Positions 3,134-51,656 of a DNA stretch of 51,656 nt are shown in pieces. The position numbers and the translations under genes are program-made. This DNA is from a virus. Each line of letters starts with the position of its first letter. Within the stretch, counting starts at the first letter, position 1. The notes beneath the pieces were generated by a model. It ran no database searches. It was given only the letters and a program-made list of their open reading frames with translations, and had not been told where the DNA came from. Location: IMG/VR virus record IMGVR_UViG_3300032046_000037, positions 1 through 51,656 of that record, one strand, 5' to 3'.

Positions 3134-3826
3134 ATGAATAAAATGAGAACACTTTTCACGCCTCTCCTGGAGCCACGGATACCTCCACGACAATGTATTC
3201 AATGCAAGATTTATTACCCTAATAAAAGAAGATATTTCCACAGACGACACTCCAGTTGGTATGAAGGATGGTGTTGTTATTGTGTGGCAGAAAAATTTGC
3301 TCCCCATCAACAGATACACTATGACCCTAATACCCCTCCTAATGAGGCCAAGGGGGAACAGAAATGCGGAGTTTGTAGCCGCAACTTTATTTATCACCCC
3401 CACAACTTCAATTTGAAGTATCATCATCCATCCGGTCTTTCTCCGTGCTGCCGCCTGTGTGAGGCACAGGAACGCCGTGAATTCTGGCGAAAAGTAACTG
3501 AAAAGTATCTCAAACGCAAGACAGATGATGAGGCCATCGCCGCCGCTTTCAAGCGGGGACAGGAAACTGGCGATATGTCCGAATGGCAATACCTCTATGC
3601 CAGACAGGAGGCCGAGGACATCAATGCAGACCTCGATGAACTCCACCGGCAACAAACTATTCGTTACGCCAGATATGAAGAAGAGTTGAAACAACTTACA
3701 GGTGGAAAGGAAGATAATGACCCAAAACCAGATGACACCGGACAGGATGAAACTAATCCTGAGCAGTTTGAAACCTGTGGAAACCGTGGAAACCAAAGAT
3801 TCGACTCCATCTCAGAAGGCATTTGA
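3134..3826 (+). CDS. Double zinc-knuckle protein (230 aa)
   Basis: The ATG follows GAAAGGAAAAACTA. The protein has two Cys4 clusters: CIQC (21, 24) with CCYC (47-50), and CGVC (78, 81) with CCRLC (105-109). Both look like treble-clef or zinc-ribbon modules of the kind found in HNH-type nucleases and phage transcription regulators. The HNH catalytic His-Asn-His arrangement is not clearly present. The C-terminal half is charged, helical and rich in Glu and Arg. As the first gene after the strong 3044 promoter, it could regulate late genes or act at packaging; that is inference. Its end overlaps the next gene by 110 bases. Confidence 0.75.
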   Translation: MNKMRTLFTPLLEPRIPPRQCIQCKIYYPNKRRYFHRRHSSWYEGWCCYCVAEKFAPHQQIHYDPNTPPNEAKGEQKCGVCSRNFIYHPHNFNLKYHHPSGLSPCCRLCEAQERREFWRKVTEKYLKRKTDDEAIAAAFKRGQETGDMSEWQYLYARQEAEDINADLDELHRQQTIRYARYEEELKQLTGGKEDNDPKPDDTGQDETNPEQFETCGNRGNQRFDSISEGI

Positions 3827-5141
3827 ACTGCCCATCAACCAAATCCTATGTGGAGATTGCCGAGAGGTCGTCCAGTCGTGGCCTGCCGCCTGCATAGATA
3901 CCATCATTACGGACCCTCCTTATAATTTGGGTTTTATGGGCAAGGAATGGGATTCATCTGGTATTGCTTTCAATGTCCCATTATGGAAGGAAATGCTGCG
4001 TATTGCCAAGCCGGGTGCCATTATGCTCGTATTCGGAGGCACCCGCACCTTCCACCGCCTGACCTGTGCCATAGAGGATGCCGGTTGGGAAATCCGAGAT
4101 TGCCTGATGTGGCTTTATGGCAGTGGCATGCCAAAATCTATGAACATAAGCAAAGCCATCGACAAATCCAAGGGGGCACAACGAGAAGTAATCGGAGAGG
4201 GAAGAAGTGGAAATCCAGAAACTCACACATCGATTTATCGAATGAGTCAGCAAGGAAACAATACTTTTGGGGGTAAAATTGACATTACTATTCCCGCCTC
4301 TGACCTCGCCAAACTCTGGGACGGATGGGGCACTGCCCTTAAGCCGAGCTTTGAGCCTATATTATTATGTCAAAAACCCCTTGACGGCACCTTCGCCCAC
4401 AACGCCGAGAAATACGGCGTGGCGGGGTTAAATATAGACGCAGCGAGAATAGGAACAGGGAACCATATAGTCCACGGCAAGGAAGTGGGTAAATTTCAAC
4501 CTTGTGGTGGACAGGCTATAAAAGACTATCATGAAGTCCAAGGCCGCTGGCCCGCCAACGTAATCCTCGAATGTATCTGTGATGAGGTGATAGAGGGAAA
4601 AGAGATAGGTAGAGAAGGGGGATATAATTTTGAAAAATCCAACAATGATAATCCTTCTCATATAACTACAAACATAAAAAGTGGTATTCACTTCAAAGAT
4701 AGACAGCTCATCCACACCAATCCCGAATGTCCTTGTTATATGCTTGACCAGCAAAGCGGCACACTCAAAGGTGGAGCCAGCAGATTTTTTTATTGTGCTA
4801 AGAGTCCAAAATCAGAACGTGATGCTGGATTGGAAGATATGCCCGAACAAATCAAAGTATGGACTGGTCAATCTGATAAATCGAGTAAGGATATAAAGGA
4901 TGTGGAACAGCGATTTACGACCAAGATAAAGAACAGCCATCCCACAGTCAAGCCCCTGAAACTGATGGAATACCTCTGCAAACTAACCTCTACTCCCACC
5001 GGCGGTCTTATTCTTGACCCCTTCTGTGGTTCTGGTTCGACTTGTATAGCCGCCAAGCGTCTTGGCCGTCCATTCATAGGAATAGATAAAGAAAAAATTT
5101 ACTGCGAAATATCTTGCAAACGTCTAAATGCTGTAGTATAA
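3717..5141 (+). CDS. DNA methyltransferase, beta class, DPPY type (474 aa)
   Basis: A site-specific DNA methyltransferase, probably making N6-methyladenine. Motif IV DPPYNLG is at about residues 66-72 and motif I, DPFCGSGST, is near 434. The order IV, recognition domain, I is that of the beta class. The blocks GRWPANVIL, GGASRFFY and HPTVKPLKLMEYL are typical of a phage/prokaryotic orphan methyltransferase family. ATG 3717 is preferred over GTG 3702 because AAAGGAAG lies just upstream. No restriction partner is present, so protection from host restriction or methylation of phage control sites is likely. Confidence 0.93.
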   Translation: MTQNQMTPDRMKLILSSLKPVETVETKDSTPSQKAFELPINQILCGDCREVVQSWPAACIDTIITDPPYNLGFMGKEWDSSGIAFNVPLWKEMLRIAKPGAIMLVFGGTRTFHRLTCAIEDAGWEIRDCLMWLYGSGMPKSMNISKAIDKSKGAQREVIGEGRSGNPETHTSIYRMSQQGNNTFGGKIDITIPASDLAKLWDGWGTALKPSFEPILLCQKPLDGTFAHNAEKYGVAGLNIDAARIGTGNHIVHGKEVGKFQPCGGQAIKDYHEVQGRWPANVILECICDEVIEGKEIGREGGYNFEKSNNDNPSHITTNIKSGIHFKDRQLIHTNPECPCYMLDQQSGTLKGGASRFFYCAKSPKSERDAGLEDMPEQIKVWTGQSDKSSKDIKDVEQRFTTKIKNSHPTVKPLKLMEYLCKLTSTPTGGLILDPFCGSGSTCIAAKRLGRPFIGIDKEKIYCEISCKRLNAVV

Positions 5142-41992: not shown

Positions 41993-43191
41993 CAATAACA
42001 GAATCACCGTTGGCAACTATCAAGAGACTGTGCCAAGAGATATTGAAGTTCAACGAAGATGATAAGGTGGTAGTGGATGTATATACCAGCGTCCTTACGG
42101 CTGCTTATCATTCCAACATACCGGAGTTCGTGTGGATGTATATAGTTGGACCACCAGGATGTGGCAAGACAGAGTTGGTGTGCCTGATGATACATCACGA
42201 AGGATGTGAGTTTATAGATGACCTGACAGAACACGCCTTGACCAGTGGGTATTCGGATGAGACAGGATTTGACCCATCATTGCTGAACAAGTTGAACGGC
42301 AAAGTGCTAGTGATAAAGGACTTGGGGGACTTCGCAGAGAACAATCCACGGTTGGTCGATAAGATATGGGGGGAACTGCGAGCGATATTCGACAAGTATT
42401 ATGTGAAGGCATCTGGAGTTGTGGGGACACGGGAATATAATGTAAGGTTCGGGATAGTAGCGGCAGCAACGGAATACATAGATAAGTTCAGTGAGAGGCA
42501 TAGACAACTGGGAGAGAGGTTCCTTTCGTTCAGGCTGGCAAGGACACCACTAACTTTGGGGGAAAGGCGGGAGTTCAACAAGCGGTGTGTCGCCTTGATG
42601 AATGACAAAGACAGTTGGCAACAGAAGTTGCGGGGAGCAGTGCAAAAGGAAGTGGACAGGATAATGGAAAGGTGCAGGAGGAAAGATAGGTTGCCAGAGA
42701 TTTCTGCAGAGGCATTGGAGGTGTTGTTGGGATTGGCAGACTTGTTGTGTTTATTCAGGACGATTCCGATAGAAGGAACAGCAATGCAGCCGGAGTTTGC
42801 GAGCAGGGTGGTTCAGCAGTTGGTAGGGTTAGTGCAAGCCCACGCATTTGCAGATGATAGAGACCTGATAGATGAATCAGATTTGGCCTTGGCAAGGAGA
42901 GTGGTAATAGATTCACTGTCCGTAGTGAGAAGGAGGATGATACACTGGATGTATTTGAGAGGGGCACATAGACTAGGAGTGTCGAAGGAACAGATTGCTT
43001 CTACTTGCGGAACCACTCCTATTATAGTATGGCCGATACTTGTTCAGTATCTACACAGCAAGGTAATAGAACTAACTTCGGTAAGTGAGAAGGAGGAGGC
43101 GATAGAATTATACAGACTGACACCGGAGATATATAAGATAGTAAAAGATTGTGGTTTGTTGGAAGGAACTCACATGACAGGTTTAACTTAA
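41989..43191 (+). CDS. AAA+ ATPase, MCM/loader-like (400 aa)
   Basis: The start at 41989 overlaps the previous stop. Walker A GPPGCGKT is at 54-61 and Walker B VLVIKDLGDF near 105. A later arginine-bearing helix (LGERFLSFRLART, about residues 180-192) resembles the AAA+ sensor region. A C-terminal segment (MYLRGAHRLGVSKEQIASTCG) reads as a winged helix. This organisation resembles bacterial/phage MCM-like or helicase-loader ATPases. No DnaB-type helicase or primase was identified elsewhere, so this is the prime candidate for the replicative motor. Confidence 0.7.
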   Translation: MTITESPLATIKRLCQEILKFNEDDKVVVDVYTSVLTAAYHSNIPEFVWMYIVGPPGCGKTELVCLMIHHEGCEFIDDLTEHALTSGYSDETGFDPSLLNKLNGKVLVIKDLGDFAENNPRLVDKIWGELRAIFDKYYVKASGVVGTREYNVRFGIVAAATEYIDKFSERHRQLGERFLSFRLARTPLTLGERREFNKRCVALMNDKDSWQQKLRGAVQKEVDRIMERCRRKDRLPEISAEALEVLLGLADLLCLFRTIPIEGTAMQPEFASRVVQQLVGLVQAHAFADDRDLIDESDLALARRVVIDSLSVVRRRMIHWMYLRGAHRLGVSKEQIASTCGTTPIIVWPILVQYLHSKVIELTSVSEKEEAIELYRLTPEIYKIVKDCGLLEGTHMTGLT

Positions 43192-43205
43192 AGAGGGGAA
43201 AGAAA

Positions 43206-43637
43206 ATGGAACGATATTTATATTTAGCCCACCCTTTTCCCACCCGGCAACGGATGAGAAAATGGGAATTGAAAGTTGAAAATAAAACCGGATTATCTCT
43301 GTTCAATCCTTTCTATGATATAGATAGGAAAGATGTTAAGGAGATAGACTTGGGCAGGCGGGACAGATATAAACTCAACCCCGCCTCCGTGGTAAATGCC
43401 GATATAAAAAAGATAAAAGAATCCACAGGATTGATTGGATATGTAGATGGAAGTCTATCCTATGGAACGATAATGGAAATAGTATATGCGTTCAATTATC
43501 AAGTTCCCGTTTATTTGATAATTACCAACGGACATCACAATCATCCGTGGTTTCGGTATCACGCAACTAAAATCTTTACGGGGTTGGAGGACTTTGAAAA
43601 ATGGGCACAGAAAGAATTACAAAAGGTGATGGGATAG
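43206..43637 (+). CDS. Nucleoside 2-deoxyribosyltransferase-like protein (143 aa)
   Basis: AGAGGGGAAAGAAA precedes ATG 43206. YLYLAHPF opens the fold, NPFYDID follows, and IGYVDGSLSYGTIMEIVYAFNYQVPVYLI carries the Gly-Thr-x-x-Glu pattern expected for the nucleophile Glu of this family. It probably handles deoxynucleosides in pyrimidine or purine salvage. Confidence 0.75.
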   Translation: MERYLYLAHPFPTRQRMRKWELKVENKTGLSLFNPFYDIDRKDVKEIDLGRRDRYKLNPASVVNADIKKIKESTGLIGYVDGSLSYGTIMEIVYAFNYQVPVYLIITNGHHNHPWFRYHATKIFTGLEDFEKWAQKELQKVMG

Positions 43638-43639
43638 AA

Positions 43640-43963
43640 ATGGTAAAGGAGATGGACAAAGTGTATGGTCATCCAATGTTCTATAAATTACTCGACAGGA
43701 TGGCTGACCTCCATTCCAGAAAAAATCATGACTACGCCGGACAAGACCCGTTGAGCAATTTGAAATCATCTCTTCGGCTGGGGTTGTCTCCATTCCTTGG
43801 GGTGCTGGTAAGGTTACAGGATAAGTGGTCGAGACTGGAACAGTTTGCGAGAAGCGGACAACTAATGGTAAAGGATGAAACAGTAGAGGATACTTTGATG
43901 GATATAGCGGTTTATAGCTTGCTGGGTATAATCCTGCGGAGAGAGGAGAAAGAAGGCAGATGA
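43640..43963 (+). CDS. DUF1599 (nucleotide-modification-associated) protein (107 aa)
   Basis: ATG 43640 is chosen; a longer reading from 43601 is possible and overlaps the previous gene. LHSRKNHDYAGQDPLSNLKSS and DTLMDIAVYSLLGIILR are family hallmarks. DUF1599 proteins are linked to phage nucleotide metabolism or base modification. Its stop overlaps the next start. Confidence 0.75.
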   Translation: MVKEMDKVYGHPMFYKLLDRMADLHSRKNHDYAGQDPLSNLKSSLRLGLSPFLGVLVRLQDKWSRLEQFARSGQLMVKDETVEDTLMDIAVYSLLGIILRREEKEGR

Positions 43964-44945: not shown

Positions 44946-45098
44946 ATGAATAAACTATACCTTATCTTCGGGATACTTACCGTAATGAGTCAGGGGGGAA
45001 TCAGTATCGTGGCCTTCTATTCGGGTAAAGCGAAAGAAGGAATAATAGGAAGTCTCTTTGCAATAGCCAATGGGATTATTTATTTATGGAAAGGATAA
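44946..45098 (+). CDS. Two-helix membrane protein (50 aa), holin-like
   Basis: ATG 44946 to TAA 45096-45098. Two hydrophobic segments (LYLIFGILTVMS and GIISLFAIANGIIYLW-like part) are joined by a short GKAKEG turn. The shape is that of a small holin or antiholin. A CCTCTGCAGAA repeat lies just upstream of its start. Confidence 0.55.
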   Translation: MNKLYLIFGILTVMSQGGISIVAFYSGKAKEGIIGSLFAIANGIIYLWKG

Positions 45099-45102
45099 GA
45101 AG

Positions 45103-45849
45103 ATGGAACTTGATACCATAATCCAGGGAGATTGTATTGAAGAGATGCAGGCTATGCCTGATAACTCCATAGACCTTGTGGTTACAAGTCCTCCTTATAA
45201 TGTGGGGATTGAGTATGATACCTTTAATGACAAGCGACCTTATCCTGCTTATCTTTATTGGTGCAGACAGTGGTTGGCGGAGATACTGCGGGTGCTCAAA
45301 CCAGATGGTAGGTTGTGTCTTGACCATTATTTGTCTTGTGGAACTGCAGAATATAGATTTGTTCCTCTTATGGATTTGAATGCTATTGCTCTTTCACTTG
45401 GATTCAAACATCATGGGATAGCAATATGGTGGGATATAACTTTGACAGAGAGAACTGCGTGGGGAAGCTGGTTGAGTGCAAGTGCCCCCTATATCAATTC
45501 GCCTTTTGAGGGAATACTGATATTGTTCAAAGACCATTGGAAAAAGGACAGGCCGGGGGCTACAGAGATTAGCAAAGAGGAGTTTATGGAAGCGTGCAGT
45601 GGGGTATGGAAGATTCCAACAGACAGAGAACGATTGACACCTGCTACTTTCCCGGTGGCATTGGCGGAACGGTGCATCCGGTTGCTGTCTTGGGAAGGAG
45701 ATATAGTATTCGACCCTTTTTCCGGGAGTGGGACGACTTGTATAGCGGCTAAAAAAACGGGAAGGAGATTTGTGGGGATTGAACTTAGCCCAGCTTATTG
45801 TCAGGTGGCAAGGGAAAGGATTATGGGGGTTTCTGCAGAGGTTGAATGA
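45103..45849 (+). CDS. DNA methyltransferase, SPPY type (248 aa)
   Basis: ATG 45103 follows AAGGATAAGAAG. Motif IV SPPYNVG at 29-35 and motif I DPFSGSGTT at about 204-212 make it a beta-class enzyme, compact and lacking extra domains. SPPY is typical of N4-cytosine or N6-adenine enzymes. The substrate site is unknown and there is no restriction partner. A TTCTGCAGAGG repeat forms its last codons. Confidence 0.92.
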   Translation: MELDTIIQGDCIEEMQAMPDNSIDLVVTSPPYNVGIEYDTFNDKRPYPAYLYWCRQWLAEILRVLKPDGRLCLDHYLSCGTAEYRFVPLMDLNAIALSLGFKHHGIAIWWDITLTERTAWGSWLSASAPYINSPFEGILILFKDHWKKDRPGATEISKEEFMEACSGVWKIPTDRERLTPATFPVALAERCIRLLSWEGDIVFDPFSGSGTTCIAAKKTGRRFVGIELSPAYCQVARERIMGVSAEVE

Positions 45850-46065
45850 GTGAAAATTCACGCCGTTGAAATCGTCAACTTCCTATAGGAAGTTCCCTGT
45901 AGGATGTTGGGTGTAGGCCGTTGGGAGTTCCCTGTAGGGAGTTGGGAGTTTCCTACGGCCTGTTGTATATAGGGAGTTCCCTGTAGGGAGTTCCCTGTTG
46001 GGAGTTCCCTGTAGGGAGTTGGGTGTAGGGTGTTGGCTGTTTCCTGTAGGGAGTTGGATATAATT
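45831..46065 (+). repeat. Composite repeat module, copy 2
   Basis: TTCTGCAGAGG (45831-45841), GAGTGAAAATTCACGC (45848-45863) and a perfect 18-bp palindrome AACTTCCTATAGGAAGTT (45877-45894) are followed by about 170 bases of imperfect GGGAGTTCCCTGTA and GGGAGTTGGGTGTA units. The same set lies at 2599-2755. It is non-coding and precedes the ubiquitin-like operon promoter. Confidence 0.8.
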
Positions 46066-46110
46066 TTTAATGCGGTTATAAGTATTTTATTGACAAAGAG
46101 TTATGAGCAA

Positions 46111-46159
46111 AAATAATTTTTGGAAAATGTTTGACAGTCCCCCCGGCCTTCCTTATACT
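46111..46159 (+). promoter_or_regulatory. Promoter of the ubiquitin-like operon (class A)
   Basis: AAATAATTTTT (46111-46121), nine bases, TTGACA (46131-46136), 17 bases, TATACT (46154-46159). The hexamers are strong and the upstream element is identical to two replication-region promoters. A second TTGACA at 46090 lacks a good -10. Transcription should start near 46166. Confidence 0.88.
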
Positions 46160-46183
46160 ATATATACGCAGACGGACGGGCGG

Positions 46184-46200
46184 TTGGCGATTTTTGCCAA
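46184..46200 (+). other. Small hairpin in the operon leader
   Basis: TTGGC-GATTTTT-GCCAA forms a five-pair stem near the 5' end of the predicted transcript. It may stabilise the messenger. It is not a terminator. Confidence 0.5.
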
Positions 46201-46252
46201 AAGTATAGATATAGATATGATGTAGTGTAGAGAAAGGGGGTATGACAATGAG

Positions 46253-46537
46253 ATGAAATGGGGAGCAGATGACCCAAGTATAGTGGAAGTGGTGGAGGCG
46301 TTTCTGGCTCGGAGTAAGAGGGAGGTAGTTGTGCCATTGACGACAGACGGCATTGAGCTGGTCAGCTTCGGAGTCCCAATAGCAAGATGGGATGGAGACA
46401 AGCTGGTAATGATGATTGGAACATCCGGGGAAAGAGAGGAGGATAAAGGTAGCGGTAGTAAAGGGAGGAAGATGCACAGGAAGTTGGTATTGGCGCTGGC
46501 AAAACAGAGTCAGGTGGAAATTGTGTTATGTGAGTAG
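46253..46537 (+). CDS. First gene of the ubiquitin-like operon (94 aa)
   Basis: AAAGGGGG precedes a four-codon ORF (46242-46256) whose stop overlaps this ATG. Residues 1-20 are helical. Residues 25-55 (VVPLTTDGIELVSFGVPIARWDGDKLVMM) form beta strands of a style seen in small phage proteins that carry an S-[FY]-G-x-P-I-A segment. A helix (KMHRKLVLALAKQ) follows. No function can be assigned. As the promoter-proximal gene it may regulate or be a target of the system. Confidence 0.6.
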   Translation: MKWGADDPSIVEVVEAFLARSKREVVVPLTTDGIELVSFGVPIARWDGDKLVMMIGTSGEREEDKGSGSKGRKMHRKLVLALAKQSQVEIVLCE

Positions 46538-46582
46538 GTAAAAAGTATAATAAGTAATGGGTAGAGAAAGGAGCAAAAGAAG

Positions 46583-46873
46583 ATGAGTATTGGCAATATG
46601 AATAATGATAATGGTAGTGTGTTGTTTGTTAATAATGAAGGCGGGGGGTTCGCAGAGGAGAAACCCATAGCCGTGGGAATGACTATAGGAGAGTTCCTTG
46701 CACGGTGGAATCCGGATGCGGATGTGGATGACTGTCTGATACGGGTAAATGGAGAAATTGTGGCAAGGAGTCAGGAACTGACGGACGGGGATAAGGTTAT
46801 CGTGGCAATGAATACTCCTTTGCAGGACGGAGATAGGGTTACAGTCAGCCCTGTCAATGTAAAGGGGGCATGA
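46583..46873 (+). CDS. Ubiquitin-like beta-grasp protein, Ubl1 (96 aa)
   Basis: AAAGGAG lies seven bases before the ATG. After a polar N-terminal tail (1-22), residues 25-92 show the ThiS/MoaD/ubiquitin-type beta-grasp pattern: a strand, helix TIGEFLARW, CLIRVNGEIV (51-60), then ELTDGDKVIVA and LQDGDRVTV. The chain ends VNVKGA, so Gly95 is next to last, instead of the usual terminal Gly-Gly. It sits next to E2, JAB and E1 genes and is the likely modifier. ThiS/MoaD sulfur carrier is the alternative, but no thiamine or molybdopterin gene is present. Confidence 0.75.
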   Translation: MSIGNMNNDNGSVLFVNNEGGGFAEEKPIAVGMTIGEFLARWNPDADVDDCLIRVNGEIVARSQELTDGDKVIVAMNTPLQDGDRVTVSPVNVKGA

Positions 46874-46914
46874 TTGGGGCCTGCACTTGGACGTGGATGC
46901 TAGGATGCTATGTG

Positions 46915-46950
46915 GGGCTGGTAGGATACTGAATAGGGTCCTGCCAGCCC
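46915..46950 (+). other. Hairpin between Ubl1 and the E2 gene
   Basis: GGGCTGGTAGGA (46915-46926) pairs with TCCTGCCAGCCC (46939-46950), 12 pairs with one wobble, and a 12-base loop. No T-tract follows. It could protect the upstream Ubl1 message or lower read-through, giving more modifier than enzyme. Confidence 0.7.
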
Positions 46951-46992
46951 AGCAATTATAAGACATAGATAATGGTAGAAAGGAAAAGAGAT

Positions 46993-48102
46993 ATGGATAT
47001 GAAGTGTAACGGTAAAGGTAAAGCAGAAAAAGAGAAGGAGGAGGAGAGAAAGCCATATACGATACAATTCTTTGGGAATGAGATAACGATTGGCACATCG
47101 AGGAGATTCCCAAGGAAGAATCTGAAGAAATGGTCTGTGAAGGAGAGGAAGGCACTACGGCTGGCATACAGGATATATCATCAATGTCTATTGAAGGGGG
47201 AAGAGGAATATAAGGAGCTATTGGCAGTGGCAGCATCCAAGTTGGTTGTAGTTCGTAAGAATCTGGCACGTGTGGAATTAGAGGGGACACCCTGCTTGGT
47301 TTGGGAGTGGGGAAGGGGAAGAGATGCACAGGACGAGAGAGGAGAGGGGATAATAACCGAAACGGCAACCTTGTTATATACCATAAAAGAGCTGTTGGAG
47401 TGTGCATGCAAGTTTCGGAGGGTGGCACGGAGGAGAGGGGGGGTAATTGCCTTTGCTACCTGTTTAGAAGGGATTGAAAAGGAGTTCGGGGTTACGTGGT
47501 CATATAGGAAGGGAATGTTAGTAGTAACCACCATAGCACCGATAGTCTTAAAAGATACAAGTATGGACTTGGCAGTGAATATGGGGAAGTTCAAGATAGA
47601 GATGCCTCTACGAACAGACTGGTGTGGCATAAGGGTGAGCCGTGTAATAGACGGGGATGCGAATGCAGATGTAAGAGGGAAGTGGAAACCTCCTAGCTAT
47701 ATACATCCGCATGTGAACACGGATGGGTATCTATGTTTAGGGGACTATGGGAAGAGTATAAGGGCAGCATGGGAGAGGTTAGATTTGGACTCCTATCTGC
47801 ATCTAGTATTAGAGATACTAAGGAATTATAATAGTGGAAGTCCCTATGTTCGATTATCAGAGTATGTGGAGGGGTGTAGCTGTATAAGGTGTGGCGGGTT
47901 CATCCTCCTTGAACATATGGGGGAGGAGAGTGTTGTATGTGAGAGATGCAAGCGAGTAATGCATAGGAGATGTGCAAACCACACGTGCATTTGTGGGACT
48001 AAGGGAATATATTGCAGAATATGTTGTTCTCTGCACCAACGAGGTGAGGATGAGGAAGGTAATGCTGTATGTGTAATCCATGGAAAACCTATTAGTGTAT
48101 AG
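46993..48102 (+). CDS. E2-like conjugating domain fused to a C4HC3 RING/PHD-like domain (369 aa)
   Basis: ATG 46993 is preferred (AAAGGA eight bases upstream); 46972 is also in frame. Residues 20-190 are not recognised but include strands such as YTIQFFGNEITIG. Residues 232-283 hold an E2 active-site signature: HPHVNTDGYLCLGDYG, with His238, Asn242 and candidate catalytic Cys248, then Trp260 and a C-terminal helix LHLVLEILRNYNSG. Residues 297-348 are a zinc cross-brace: C297-x2-C300, C316-x2-C319, H324-x2-C327, C341-x2-C344, with extra Cys at 295, 332, 334 and 345. Fusion of E2 with a RING/PHD-like domain would join conjugase and ligase in one chain. Confidence 0.82.
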   Translation: MDMKCNGKGKAEKEKEEERKPYTIQFFGNEITIGTSRRFPRKNLKKWSVKERKALRLAYRIYHQCLLKGEEEYKELLAVAASKLVVVRKNLARVELEGTPCLVWEWGRGRDAQDERGEGIITETATLLYTIKELLECACKFRRVARRRGGVIAFATCLEGIEKEFGVTWSYRKGMLVVTTIAPIVLKDTSMDLAVNMGKFKIEMPLRTDWCGIRVSRVIDGDANADVRGKWKPPSYIHPHVNTDGYLCLGDYGKSIRAAWERLDLDSYLHLVLEILRNYNSGSPYVRLSEYVEGCSCIRCGGFILLEHMGEESVVCERCKRVMHRRCANHTCICGTKGIYCRICCSLHQRGEDEEGNAVCVIHGKPISV

Positions 48103-48120
48103 AGTAAGGAGAGTGAAAAG

Positions 48121-49179
48121 ATGAGTAGAAAGCACGGGGATAAAGGGAAGCATAAAGATAAAGGATTGCGATTCTGGCAGGGTAATGGAAAGCCAGCGAT
48201 AACGAAGGTGGGGAAAGGGGGGATGGAGATGGTATTAAGAATAAGTCCAATGGCGTGGGCAAAGATACTCTGGTTCAAAGACAAGGCAGATGGATTAGAG
48301 ATAAGTGGATTTGGAGTAACGGCAGTAGATGACCCACTATATATGGAAGAATTCCACACCATAAAGCAGGAATGCACCGGCAGCAGTGTGGATATAGATG
48401 ATGAGGATATTGGCAGGTATTTTGACGAGCAAGTGAACAGGGGAAAGCAACCAAAAGACTTCGCAAGGATATGGATACATACACATCCAGATGGAGTCAC
48501 ACAGCCAAGCGGGGTAGATACAAATACACAGGAGAGCGGGTTGGGGGGTGCAAGCTGGACTATTATGATGGTAGTAGTGGGGGAAGGGGCAATAGCTAGG
48601 ATAAGGGTGATACCCTTTGGCAATTATGCAACGGAAGGAGAGATACCAGTAAGGATAGATTGGACGGAGAGACCCTTTGGTGGGTCTGACTTTGAGGGAT
48701 GGGGGCGGGAGTTTGATAAGAACATAAAGAGGAAAGCAATAGTATGGGAAGTAGGAGTAACTGATGCTCTAATTTCAAATAGATGGGGAATAGCAGGAAT
48801 AGCAGGAATAGCAACAGCAGGGGCAGTGCCAGACAACAAGGTGATAATGCCAGCAACAATGGTAAGTAATAGGGAGACCATCATTATGGGGGATTGGGCG
48901 CTAACGGCAGCGGATATTGGATGTCTGAAGAATAGAGGGTTCACACTTATGGAAATAGATATGTATGGAGATATGTTATTCGGAATGACACCGGCACAGT
49001 TGGAACGGTATGAGTGCAACTTGTATGGAGTTAGTCTGGAACAGTTACGGGACGAGAAAGTAGTAGAAAGGAAAATAGGAGATAGTTATGAAAACAGCAA
49101 GCAAGAGGAAAGTAGAGACAACGGAAGTGGAAGTGGAAGACCCCCGGTTCATACGACAGCAGGAGATAATACCCCTTAA
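48121..49179 (+). CDS. JAB/MPN (JAMM) deubiquitinase-like protease (352 aa)
   Basis: AAGGAG precedes the ATG. The JAMM site is complete: Glu60 in LEISGFG, then H120-T-H122-x7-S130-x2-D133. These are the zinc ligands and catalytic residues of Rpn11/AMSH-type metalloproteases and of the bacterial deconjugases in ubiquitin-like operons. Residues 180-330 are a second, unrecognised domain with a Gly/Ile/Ala-rich helix pair. The final 30 residues are disordered and overlap the E1 gene by 92 bases. It should process Ubl precursors or remove Ubl from targets. Confidence 0.9.
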   Translation: MSRKHGDKGKHKDKGLRFWQGNGKPAITKVGKGGMEMVLRISPMAWAKILWFKDKADGLEISGFGVTAVDDPLYMEEFHTIKQECTGSSVDIDDEDIGRYFDEQVNRGKQPKDFARIWIHTHPDGVTQPSGVDTNTQESGLGGASWTIMMVVVGEGAIARIRVIPFGNYATEGEIPVRIDWTERPFGGSDFEGWGREFDKNIKRKAIVWEVGVTDALISNRWGIAGIAGIATAGAVPDNKVIMPATMVSNRETIIMGDWALTAADIGCLKNRGFTLMEIDMYGDMLFGMTPAQLERYECNLYGVSLEQLRDEKVVERKIGDSYENSKQEESRDNGSGSGRPPVHTTAGDNTP

Positions 49180-49894
49180 AGCCATACAGGAGTTGACAGT
49201 CTTGGTAGCGGGGGTAGGAGCAGTGGGGAGGCAGGTGGCACTGCAACTAGCGGCAATGGGTATAGGCACAGGAGGAGAGGGGGGAAGGTTGATTCTGGTT
49301 GACCCAGATGTTGTAGAGAGACATAATTGTGCCACGCAGGGATATACCCAAGGAGATGAAAATAAGAACAAATCTATAGTAACAACAGTGGATTGCCGAG
49401 GCATCCATGGAGTAGGGGAGAGAGGTATTCAGTATTATTCTTATGGAGAGGGGGTCAAGGCAGAGGATATTGACTATGGTGACGAAAAGGTGGATATAGT
49501 ATTTGTATGTGTGGATAATATGGAAGCACGGGGAAGGATATGGCGGAGGATAATTAAGACAGGGAAGGGAATCAAGCTGGTAATAGATACCAGGATGGAC
49601 TCGGAGGTAATAAGGATACTGACAGTGCCGTTGGATGATTCGGATGATATGGATGCTATGGTGGTAGTAGATAGATATGTAAGGGAGGCATTGTTTGCAG
49701 ATGAGAAAGCAACAGAGGGAAGATGCACGGCAAGGATGACTATATATTCAGCGGCTGTGAACGCAGGATTGGCTGTGGCACAGTTTGCCAAGTGGTTACG
49801 GAGAGACAAGGGAATACCTCTGCAGAAGGATATATCCTTTAATCTTCTGACTATGGAGTTATCGGATTTGTATGGTAATGGGGGGAGTAGGTAA
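49088..49894 (+). CDS. ThiF/E1-like activating enzyme (268 aa)
   Basis: AGGAG lies before ATG 49088, inside the end of the JAB gene. VLVAGVGAVG gives the nucleotide-binding G-x-G-x2-G at 42-47; VDPDVVERHN follows with Asp72 and Asn80; later FVCVDNMEARGRIW and IDTRM are usual E1 blocks. Cys213 in EGRCTARMTIYSA is in the place of the conserved Cys of many prokaryotic E1-like proteins and is the best thioester candidate. At 268 aa it is a single ThiF domain. It should adenylate a Ubl C-terminus and pass it to the E2. Confidence 0.9.
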   Translation: MKTASKRKVETTEVEVEDPRFIRQQEIIPLKAIQELTVLVAGVGAVGRQVALQLAAMGIGTGGEGGRLILVDPDVVERHNCATQGYTQGDENKNKSIVTTVDCRGIHGVGERGIQYYSYGEGVKAEDIDYGDEKVDIVFVCVDNMEARGRIWRRIIKTGKGIKLVIDTRMDSEVIRILTVPLDDSDDMDAMVVVDRYVREALFADEKATEGRCTARMTIYSAAVNAGLAVAQFAKWLRRDKGIPLQKDISFNLLTMELSDLYGNGGSR

Positions 49895-49926
49895 TAGGTA
49901 GTAGGTAAGAGGTAAGGAGATAAGGT

Positions 49927-50136
49927 ATGGGAACGATTAGTGTAAGGTGGAGTTATCCATCAAAGTATGACAGACAAATGGAGATAAAGGAGGGGGAGAC
50001 CCTCGCAAGCATAGTAGGGCGGCAAATAGGCCATATAAGTAGAGATGATAAAGTGCGGGTTGAGTTGAATGGAAAGGAAGCATCTTTAACTACTGTGGTG
50101 AAGGTTGGAGACAAGATACATATTTTTACATCCTAG
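49927..50136 (+). CDS. Second beta-grasp protein, Ubl2 (69 aa)
   Basis: AAGGAG lies seven bases before the ATG. A compact ThiS-like layout: two strands (ISVRWSY, RQMEIKEGE), helix TLASIVGRQIG, then VRVELNGKEA (43-52), linker, and VVKVGDKIHIF. The VNG/LNG turn and GDK strand match Ubl1, but the two proteins differ in sequence. It ends IFTS without any Gly, so it cannot be joined in the usual way unless the tail is used differently. It may be a binding partner or decoy of Ubl1. Confidence 0.7.
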   Translation: MGTISVRWSYPSKYDRQMEIKEGETLASIVGRQIGHISRDDKVRVELNGKEASLTTVVKVGDKIHIFTS

Positions 50137-50169
50137 GAATAGGAAACAGGAAAAGAGAAAGGAGCAAGT

Positions 50170-50610
50170 ATGTGTTTGGACATTGTATATAGTGAAACGA
50201 AAAGGGAGAGGAGGTTGGCGAGGAAGCGGCAGGATGTATTTGCTGTTTATAAGAATGTAGAGTGGGGATGGAAAAGGGGAAAGCTAGTGGCATGTCCGGA
50301 GATATTCGGGTATAAGAGCCGTCACTTCAAGGCGGGGATTAACAAGGCTAAGGAGATGGGACCACATCGGATAATACAGGCAAACGCCGGGGGATGGTAT
50401 GAGGCAGGATTCCATTGTTATATGGCGCAGGCCGGATGCCTAAGAAACCGGAAGCAACTGAGATGCTTTGTGAAGAAGAGGGATATAGTAGCAATGGGAA
50501 AGCAGATGGGACTGGTAGTTATAGTGGCCAGCAAGATGAGGATTTATAAAAAAGATTGGGATAAAGCGAAAGGGGTGTTTGAGGACTATTTAGCAATAGA
50601 GTGGGGATAA
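50170..50610 (+). CDS. MCLD-type conserved hypothetical protein (146 aa)
   Basis: AAAGGAG precedes the ATG. The start MCLDIVYSETKRE, the centre EAGFHCYMAQAGC and the end KKRDIVAMGKQMGLVVIVASKMRIY follow a pattern I recognise from phage and bacterial hypothetical proteins with a shared [GA]-FH-x-[YF] block. Function is unknown. It follows the Ubl genes at normal operon spacing. Confidence 0.65.
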   Translation: MCLDIVYSETKRERRLARKRQDVFAVYKNVEWGWKRGKLVACPEIFGYKSRHFKAGINKAKEMGPHRIIQANAGGWYEAGFHCYMAQAGCLRNRKQLRCFVKKRDIVAMGKQMGLVVIVASKMRIYKKDWDKAKGVFEDYLAIEWG

Positions 50611-50639
50611 GTAAAGAGAAAAGAGAAGGGAGGCAGAAG

Positions 50640-51083
50640 ATGGTTCGCAAGAATGAGGATATGGAAATGGAAATGGAAATGGAGGAAGTAGAGGGGGAGC
50701 AGGGGCATAAAGGGAAGTTTGCAGAGGCCGTTGAACGGGGCAATGAAAATAGTGGAGAATTGAAGAAGGACTCGGAGGAGGCCCCGGAATTGCTCATGGG
50801 GGAGATTCCAAAGTATATGAAACTGGAAGAGGAGACGCTGATAATTGAGGTGGAGGACTTCGAGGGGCGAAGGGAGTTGAGGATAGGGGTGGATGAGGTA
50901 GCGAAGTATTACGCAGAGGAAGCACCAAATATAACGAGTGGATGCAGGACATTGGCCGGATATACAGGAGATTGGAGGAATATAGACCAGTTGGCAGGGG
51001 CCTGCTTGGCTACATTCATACATGTATGTCCAGAGAAAATGAAGGAAGCGGGGAAGAGGGTAGGACTGAAAGCAAGGTTTTAA
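50640..51083 (+). CDS. Acidic hypothetical protein (147 aa)
   Basis: ATG 50640 has GGGAGG six bases upstream. The first 55 residues are very acidic and disordered (an ME-repeat made by a GAAATG DNA repeat). Residues 60-147 look folded, with a helical end (IDQLAGACLATFIHVCPEKMKEAGKRV). No family was recognised. The long disordered start would suit a modification substrate, but that is a guess. Confidence 0.6.
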   Translation: MVRKNEDMEMEMEMEEVEGEQGHKGKFAEAVERGNENSGELKKDSEEAPELLMGEIPKYMKLEEETLIIEVEDFEGRRELRIGVDEVAKYYAEEAPNITSGCRTLAGYTGDWRNIDQLAGACLATFIHVCPEKMKEAGKRVGLKARF

Positions 51084-51106
51084 CAGAACGAAGATAGGAG
51101 GCAAGT

Positions 51107-51295
51107 ATGTTGACAGAGAAAGATTTTGAGGAAATAGCAGGGACAGTGAAGGATGCCAGAGAGGCAATAGATACAGGGGGAGCACCAAGGGAGGAATACT
51201 TGGCAGTGAGGCTGGCAGACTGGCTGGAAGAGCAGAACCCCCGATTCGACAGGGATAAGTTCCTGAAGGCGTGTGGTATGGAGGATAGAGAATGA
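51107..51295 (+). CDS. Small conserved-type phage protein (62 aa)
   Basis: TAGGAGG precedes the ATG. Helical, ending in the pattern RLADWLEEQNPRFDRDKFLKACG, common in small phage proteins of unknown function. Its stop overlaps the next start. Confidence 0.65.
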   Translation: MLTEKDFEEIAGTVKDAREAIDTGGAPREEYLAVRLADWLEEQNPRFDRDKFLKACGMEDRE

Positions 51296-51531
51296 GAATG
51301 ACAGTAGGCGATGAGCATAGGTATTACTTGGAGGATGGAGACAGGGTATATTCAACAGGATGCTGGCTGGAATGGCGGGAGGCGGTGGGGGGCAGCAGCG
51401 AGGAAAGACCAACCACTGATGAAGGTATGGTGTGGGTGTTCGGTGGGTGGGAGGATGATACATACTTCGATGGAGAGCCGTTAGAGTGGGACGATGAATT
51501 GAGCAGGCCATATATAGTAGAGAAGAATTGA
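51292..51531 (+). CDS. Small acidic protein (79 aa)
   Basis: Coupled to the previous gene (ATGA). Trp-, Glu- and Asp-rich, with several short strands. No family was recognised. Confidence 0.55.
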   Translation: MRMTVGDEHRYYLEDGDRVYSTGCWLEWREAVGGSSEERPTTDEGMVWVFGGWEDDTYFDGEPLEWDDELSRPYIVEKN

Positions 51532-51545
51532 AAGGGGAATGGCAA

Positions 51546-51656
51546 ATGAAAACAAAAGGACACAAACGAAAATCAAAAGATATTTGGGATAGAGTATCCG
51601 ACTTTCTATCTAACATTGAAAGGGGGATGTTCTGGCACGTTCACCACGATAAGCTG
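51546..51656 (+). CDS. 5' part of junction-spanning gene
   Basis: AAAGGGG lies eight bases before the ATG. Thirty-seven codons are open to the window end, starting with a basic stretch (MKTKGHKRKSKDIW). The frame continues at base 11 through the terminal repeat to the stop at 391 (163 aa in all). See the entry at 2-391 for the repeats and Cys tail. Confidence 0.75.
   Translation, partial: MKTKGHKRKSKDIWDRVSDFLSNIERGMFWHVHHDKL

Follow-up and report, generated by a model that had tools for sequence, protein, structure and literature searches.

A putative ubiquitin-like protein-conjugation cassette in a phage, with counterparts in crAss-like phages and planctomycetes

The phage genome analyzed here very probably carries its own protein-conjugation cascade. 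The window, which is the whole of IMG/VR virus record IMGVR_UViG_3300032046_000037 (51,656 bases), contains at 46,583–50,136 a cassette of plus-strand genes in the order Ubl1, an E2-like protein with a C-terminal cysteine-rich domain, a JAB protease, a ThiF/E1 enzyme, and Ubl2. We place the probability that this cassette is a phage-borne conjugation cascade, its role aside, at roughly 85% based upon the order of the genes, the folds and catalytic residues of their products, the conserved tails, and residence in a phage lineage, all of which were computed. A preliminary description of this DNA had listed five such open reading frames and a complete phage-encoded set; all five are present, and the set of Ubl, E2, JAB, and E1 is complete, with active sites that are intact in the sequence. 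Phage genes recognized in the window include large terminase, PolA, exonuclease, and tail fibre, and neither tRNAs nor genes for a tyrosine integrase or a serine recombinase/resolvase were found across its length.

Ubl1 (46,583–46,873, plus strand) is a 96-aa ThiS-type beta-grasp modifier with one Ubl domain, its single ThiS match (Pfam, 2.3e-7) lying above the cut-off, and with the C-terminus ...SPVNVKGA. The C-termini of relatives mark Gly95 (46,865–46,867, plus strand) as conserved, followed by one Ala predicted to be removed by JAB, and in Ubl1 and its relatives the C-terminal glycine is kept with zero to three residues beyond it. Window-type Ubls end in SPVNVKGA, SPQKVAGA, SPRKVGGA, or HQGGVIA, those of further phages in VKGGIA, VKGNK, EGGR, EGGSK, SGGKQ, SSGC, or KVKSGK, and a planctomycete Ubl in TPTKIEGA; crAss-type Ubls have KKIKSG and then short or long extensions. 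A glycine with a short tail would be as expected of a JAMM-processed pro-modifier, and processing of this type with E1 and E2 has been reconstituted for Caldiarchaeum subterraneum (PMC5654768). The Ubl1 terminus is VKG-A rather than GG, which counts against the conjugation reading. Ubl2 (49,927–50,136, plus strand; 69 aa), earlier put forward as a second beta-grasp protein, stands as an open reading frame, but its ThiS-like assignment is marginal: because its ThiS match (1.4e-3) falls below the cut-off and its C-terminus, IHIFTS, is without a terminal glycine, it is the weakest member of the cassette. It is weakly similar (0.0014) to a Ubl gene located 3′ of E1 in locus L118.

The E2-like protein (46,972–48,102, plus strand; 376 aa) was assigned from AlphaFold models, profile comparison with the PDB, and structure alignment. 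AlphaFold predicts a long helical hairpin (residues about 56–154), a UBC-like domain (about 157–300), and the cysteine-rich C-terminus. The full-length single sequence had no Pfam match, and UQ_con was matched by 2 of 50 family members (best 9e-4). With the family profile, E2 enzymes accounted for 40 of 41 sequence matches in the PDB (best E-value 0.034), and the profile segment HPHVssdgrlClG (HPHV..dG.lClG) aligned with HPNVYADGSICLD of PDB E2s. The active-site motif HPHVNTDGYLC (residues 245–255; 47,704–47,736, plus strand) ends in the predicted catalytic Cys255, and an alignment of 53 sequences shows no variation at H245, P246, H247, C255, or G257. The full-length model (mean pLDDT 79.5) matched only helical hairpins in a structure search, residues 55–156 occupying the list, and the fold search was repeated with the E2 domain alone so that the hairpin no longer masked the remainder. 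The domain-only model (pLDDT 82.3) comprises a helix, beta meander, active-site loop, and two helices. Its first three Foldseek matches were a Plasmodium E2, the UFM1 E2, and the Vps23 UEV (E 0.055 to 0.37), and the best 50 VIA-align rows were ubiquitin-conjugating enzymes without exception (Z 6.8–7.8, rmsd 3.4–4.5, 114–124 of 153 residues aligned). Two points count against the assignment: this protein has HPH where classical E2s have HPN, and each E-value taken by itself is weak (at best 0.034 for the sequence profile and 0.055 for Foldseek), with Z below 8. Single scores are modest, yet profile, Foldseek, and VIA-align agree with one another, and the E2 call of the preliminary description holds, with a predicted UBC fold and catalytic cysteine.

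The C-terminus of this protein contains a Cys/His-rich domain (CxxC..CxxC..HxxC..CxxC; 47,878–48,030, plus strand), recognized from its sequence and from Cys-rich tails in relatives, that probably binds zinc. The RING/PHD-like E3 module proposed earlier corresponds to this cysteine-rich region and was not supported as such. RING and PHD profiles had no significant match to the domain, its best Pfam match was C1_1 (0.012), its PDB matches were assorted zinc domains (E 0.18 or worse), and its C4HC3-like spacing was judged by eye.

The JAB/JAMM metalloprotease (isopeptidase; 48,121–49,179, plus strand; 352 aa) is encoded with a 92-nt overlap with the start of E1, and as a single sequence it has weak Pfam support (Prok-JAB 0.041). 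Its JAMM motif HTHPDGVTQPSGVD (48,478–48,519, plus strand; H120, H122, S130, and D133), together with E60 (48,298–48,300), is intact as originally reported: E60, H120, H122, and D133 are conserved in 100% and S130 in 99% of 237 sequences, percentages that, like those for E1, are biased upward where positions belonged to search patterns. The E1/ThiF-type adenylating enzyme (49,088–49,894, plus strand; 268 aa) has a single adenylation domain (Pfam ThiF 4e-18), and its best phmmer matches in the PDB are E1 enzymes, in keeping with the E1-like ThiF protein first described. Its predicted catalytic Cys213 (GRCTARMTIY; 49,724–49,726, plus strand), which was part of the genome-scan pattern only, is present in 100% of 246 sequences, and R23, GxGxxG, D72, D74, N80, K95, D143, R148, R169, and C213 are 97–100% conserved in the same set. 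Counting against the assignment, the family does not keep the Arg that in E1 enzymes usually follows the conserved Asn (positions 81–83).

We hypothesize that JAB trims the C-terminal tail of pro-Ubl1 between the G and A of VKGA, which would expose the glycine. E1 would adenylate Ubl1 with ATP and then hold it as a thioester on Cys213, from where Ubl1 would pass to Cys255 of E2. Attachment to a lysine of the target protein would be carried out by E2, with its helical and cysteine-rich parts probably assisting substrate choice, and JAB might also be able to take the tag off again.

Single-sequence searches of viral contigs, phages, and plasmids with E2 and E1 gave no match at strict thresholds, and the sole match of a first E2 DNA pattern was a chance hit inside the gene of another protein. 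A permissive search matched ThiF genes of crAss-like phages, and further viral loci were obtained by scanning with E1 and E2 patterns. When viral loci with 4 kb or more of upstream sequence were counted (139, near-duplicates included), JAB was detected in 137, E2 in 132, Ubl in 122, and all four genes in 118, and the order Ubl-E2-JAB-E1 is retained across phage loci. The cultured gut phage crAss001 has the window’s order in gp79 (Ubl, KKIKSG and tail), gp78 (E2-like, HSHV...PCTG), gp77 (JAB), and gp76 (E1), which are annotated as hypothetical, hypothetical, metalloprotease, and ThiF, respectively, and are all of “unknown function” in PHROGs. Its cluster differs in an E1 about 27% identical to that of the window, a long Ubl C-terminal extension, and the kind of phage that carries it. 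BLAST gave no significant match of the window E2 to gp78 or of the window JAB to gp77; crAss-type and window-type E2s are connected through their motif, their gene position, and a moderately strong hhalign profile comparison (probability 56%, p 1e-4). Cultured phages with a crAss-type E1 also include DAC15, DAC17, and relatives of Flavobacterium phage FpV4; DAC15 has an E2 as well, and the E1 of FpV4 is preceded by two hypothetical proteins whose size and position match. Primase, UDG, and exonuclease genes neighbour the cassette in crAss001 and FpV4, and a gene for an ATPase of Sak4 appearance adjoins E1 in L025. The cassette is not peculiar to the window phage: the same four-gene order occurs in many phages (crAss001 and relatives) and in planctomycete genomes. 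Open papers yielded no account of phage Ubl cascades, although an earlier mention in subscription papers or preprints (e.g., in Aravind-group E1/E2 surveys) is possible, and the main text of the crAss001 and crAss-like genome papers mentions neither ubiquitin nor ThiF.

A genome scan for E1 returned mostly Planctomycetota, with E1 about 40% identical and the same gene order; all four genes are present in 38 of the 43 cellular loci with enough flank. Planctomycete operons (e.g., L179 and L215) contain homologous E1, JAB, E2, and Ubl genes in identical order, their E2 sharing the HPHV motif and Cys-rich tail, and differ in their location in cellular genomes and in an E2 motif that reads HPHV..LCEG. 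The papers searched contained no description of the function of these operons. The planctomycete-type operon is the closest family, and the window cassette is a phage variant of it. In a tree of 135 E1 sequences the cellular E1s group in a single 38-member clade that also contains the window and 12 phages, and the other branches are all viral. We make no claim on the direction of transfer because the tree has no root and the cellular sequences were sampled by how close they are to the window. Two planctomycete-type operons, L180:2,568–6,678 and L179:3,942–6,645, come from MAGs whose labels read Thermoplasmata archaeon and Actinomycetes; these contigs are perhaps misbinned.

Since cellular operons of planctomycetes carry the same genes and GC skew climbs at about 46 kb, the cassette might be an assembly chimera in which a bacterial operon was joined to a phage contig, an objection that the preliminary description had itself named. 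We regard this as extremely improbable, and a sister phage with core genes and cassette in common with the window refutes it. The sister contig G007 (locus L088) has TerL (40%, 4e-118), PolA (33%, 3e-48), and other core genes, six being common to G007 and the window phage, and its Ubl-E2-E2-JAB-E1 genes lie 12.7 kb before TerL, compared with 12.0 kb in the window when its ends are joined. Cassette codon usage also falls within the core range. GC skew is about 0.37–0.45 at 1–2,000 and 46,000–51,656 and mostly 0.0–0.3 elsewhere, such that the skewed block of 46–51.6 kb runs on into 1–2 kb; this match between the end stretches suggests that the record ends adjoin. No end repeat was found in the record, and it is synteny and skew that point to its circularity.

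By analogy of predicted mechanism, the cassette is of the Bil/Caldiarchaeum kind. BilABCD, a cellular defence system, likewise has Ubl, E2, JAB, and E1 within one operon, in the same order if judged by Bil gene letters (PMC11354881). Identity with Bil was rejected on three defining features (PMC11354881): BilA has two consecutive Ubl domains, whereas Ubl1 has one; BilB has a CEHH motif (C, +6 E, +8 H, +13 H), whereas the window has K261, I263, and E268 at the equivalent places after C255; and BilD is an E1 with inactive and active adenylation domains, whereas the 268-aa window E1 has one ThiF domain. The operon of Caldiarchaeum subterraneum resembles the cassette in having an E1, an E2, and one Ubl that is made as a pro-protein and trimmed by a JAMM protease, and differs in belonging to an archaeal cell, in having a separate small RING protein as zinc E3, and in a JAMM gene that adjoins the operon instead of lying inside it (PMC5654768). 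CBASS Cap2/Cap3 was rejected (Cap3 14 bits against a curated cut-off of 200; window E1 and E2 are separate genes, not fused), and PADLOC returned only weak JAB and E1-E2 matches on the window. PRTRC systems contain ThiF, JAB, E2, and Ubl parts, and membership was rejected with the window E1 scoring 9e-9 and 35 bits against PRTRC_ThiF, for which the cut-off is 144.75.

The gene run that includes the cassette is headed by a 94-aa open reading frame of unassigned function and without a Pfam match (46,253–46,537, plus strand). A consensus scan located two sigma-70-like promoter sites 5′ of the cassette (46,090–46,159, plus strand; TTGACA-16-AATAAT and TTGACA-17-TATACT), each with 11 of 12 positions, which are suggestive only, the site total in the region being close to the shuffle mean. 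Directly before them, at 45,898–46,069, are 14-base imperfect tandem repeats (TAGGGAGTTCCCTG) with a methylase gene on one side and the cassette on the other. The window phage has two N4/N6 DNA methylases (3,702–5,141 and 45,070–45,849), which suggest a phage under defence pressure, and encodes nucleoside deoxyribosyltransferase-like and DUF1599 (nucleotide modification) proteins at 43,149–43,637 and 43,601–43,963, possibly base modification genes.

As to role, our leading but tentative hypothesis is that the cascade is expressed early from host-type promoters and tags host or defence proteins, which would redirect or disable them. This reading draws on the two 11-of-12 sigma-70-like sites, on the DNA-metabolism and replication genes around the cassette in other phages, and on the methylases. 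The composition and order shared with BilABCD (PMC11354881), which tags the central tail fibre of a phage (PMC11364771), would fit a weapon between phages, with Ubl1 placed on virion proteins of a co-infecting phage, spoiled progeny, and superinfection exclusion as the result. We think this unlikely given that the tandem Ubl, CEHH motif, and double-domain E1 of Bil are missing and that the cassette sits among DNA-metabolism genes in crAss001, FpV4, and L025; moreover, no integrase or recombinase was found in the window, so that the phage is unlikely to keep others out over the long term as a prophage.

The cascade might instead act on proteins of the phage itself, such as those of replication or of the capsid, as part of ordinary growth. 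This would suit a block that is near-fixed across divergent phage lineages and often placed by replication genes, which looks more like a core function than an accessory one. We also give this a low chance, since neighbours vary by lineage and no conserved phage substrate was recognized beside the cassette. In a sulphur-carrier role, a ThiF-made, JAB-trimmed Ubl thiocarboxylate would supply a nucleotide, tRNA, or cofactor, and the E2-like protein would not conjugate. The ThiS/ThiF-type Ubl and E1, the nucleotide-related genes in the window, and known JAB-Ubl-ThiF sulphur operons (PMC1779556) are compatible with such a role, but the E2 is conserved with HPH and Cys invariant, and this retention of its active site makes sulphur transfer very unlikely; nor was a rhodanese, cysteine desulfurase, or acceptor enzyme recognized in the cassette.

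Extending the host-tagging hypothesis, we tentatively propose, at somewhat less than even odds, that Ubl conjugation belongs to the core early functions of many tailed phages, whose own E1, E2, Ubl, and JAB tag host or defence proteins as the phage takes over the cell, and that cellular operons (e.g., those of planctomycetes) are relatives exchanged with the viral pool. If true, a phage cascade has so far been hidden behind annotations that read hypothetical, metalloprotease, or ThiF. Bacterial Ubl conjugation is a known anti-phage weapon; a large, conserved, and so far unannotated group of phages with a complete cascade of their own would reverse that use and make reversible protein tagging a viral strategy, and E2 enzymes and pro-ubiquitins would have diversified in a wider pool. 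The proposal can be put to the test right away in crAss001, DAC15, and the Flavobacterium phages, all of which are in culture.

Several viral loci show additional genes or variants. A gene of unassigned function lies directly 3′ of E1 in crAss-type cassettes (L004:6,576–7,388, crAss001 gp75), and its product is a possible substrate or ligase. L106, L117, L129, and L130 each have more than one E2-like gene, on contigs of about 180–190 kb except for L130 (57 kb). Two Ubl genes are present in both L106 and L117, and the Ubl of L129/L130 is 245 aa long and may be a multi-Ubl protein.
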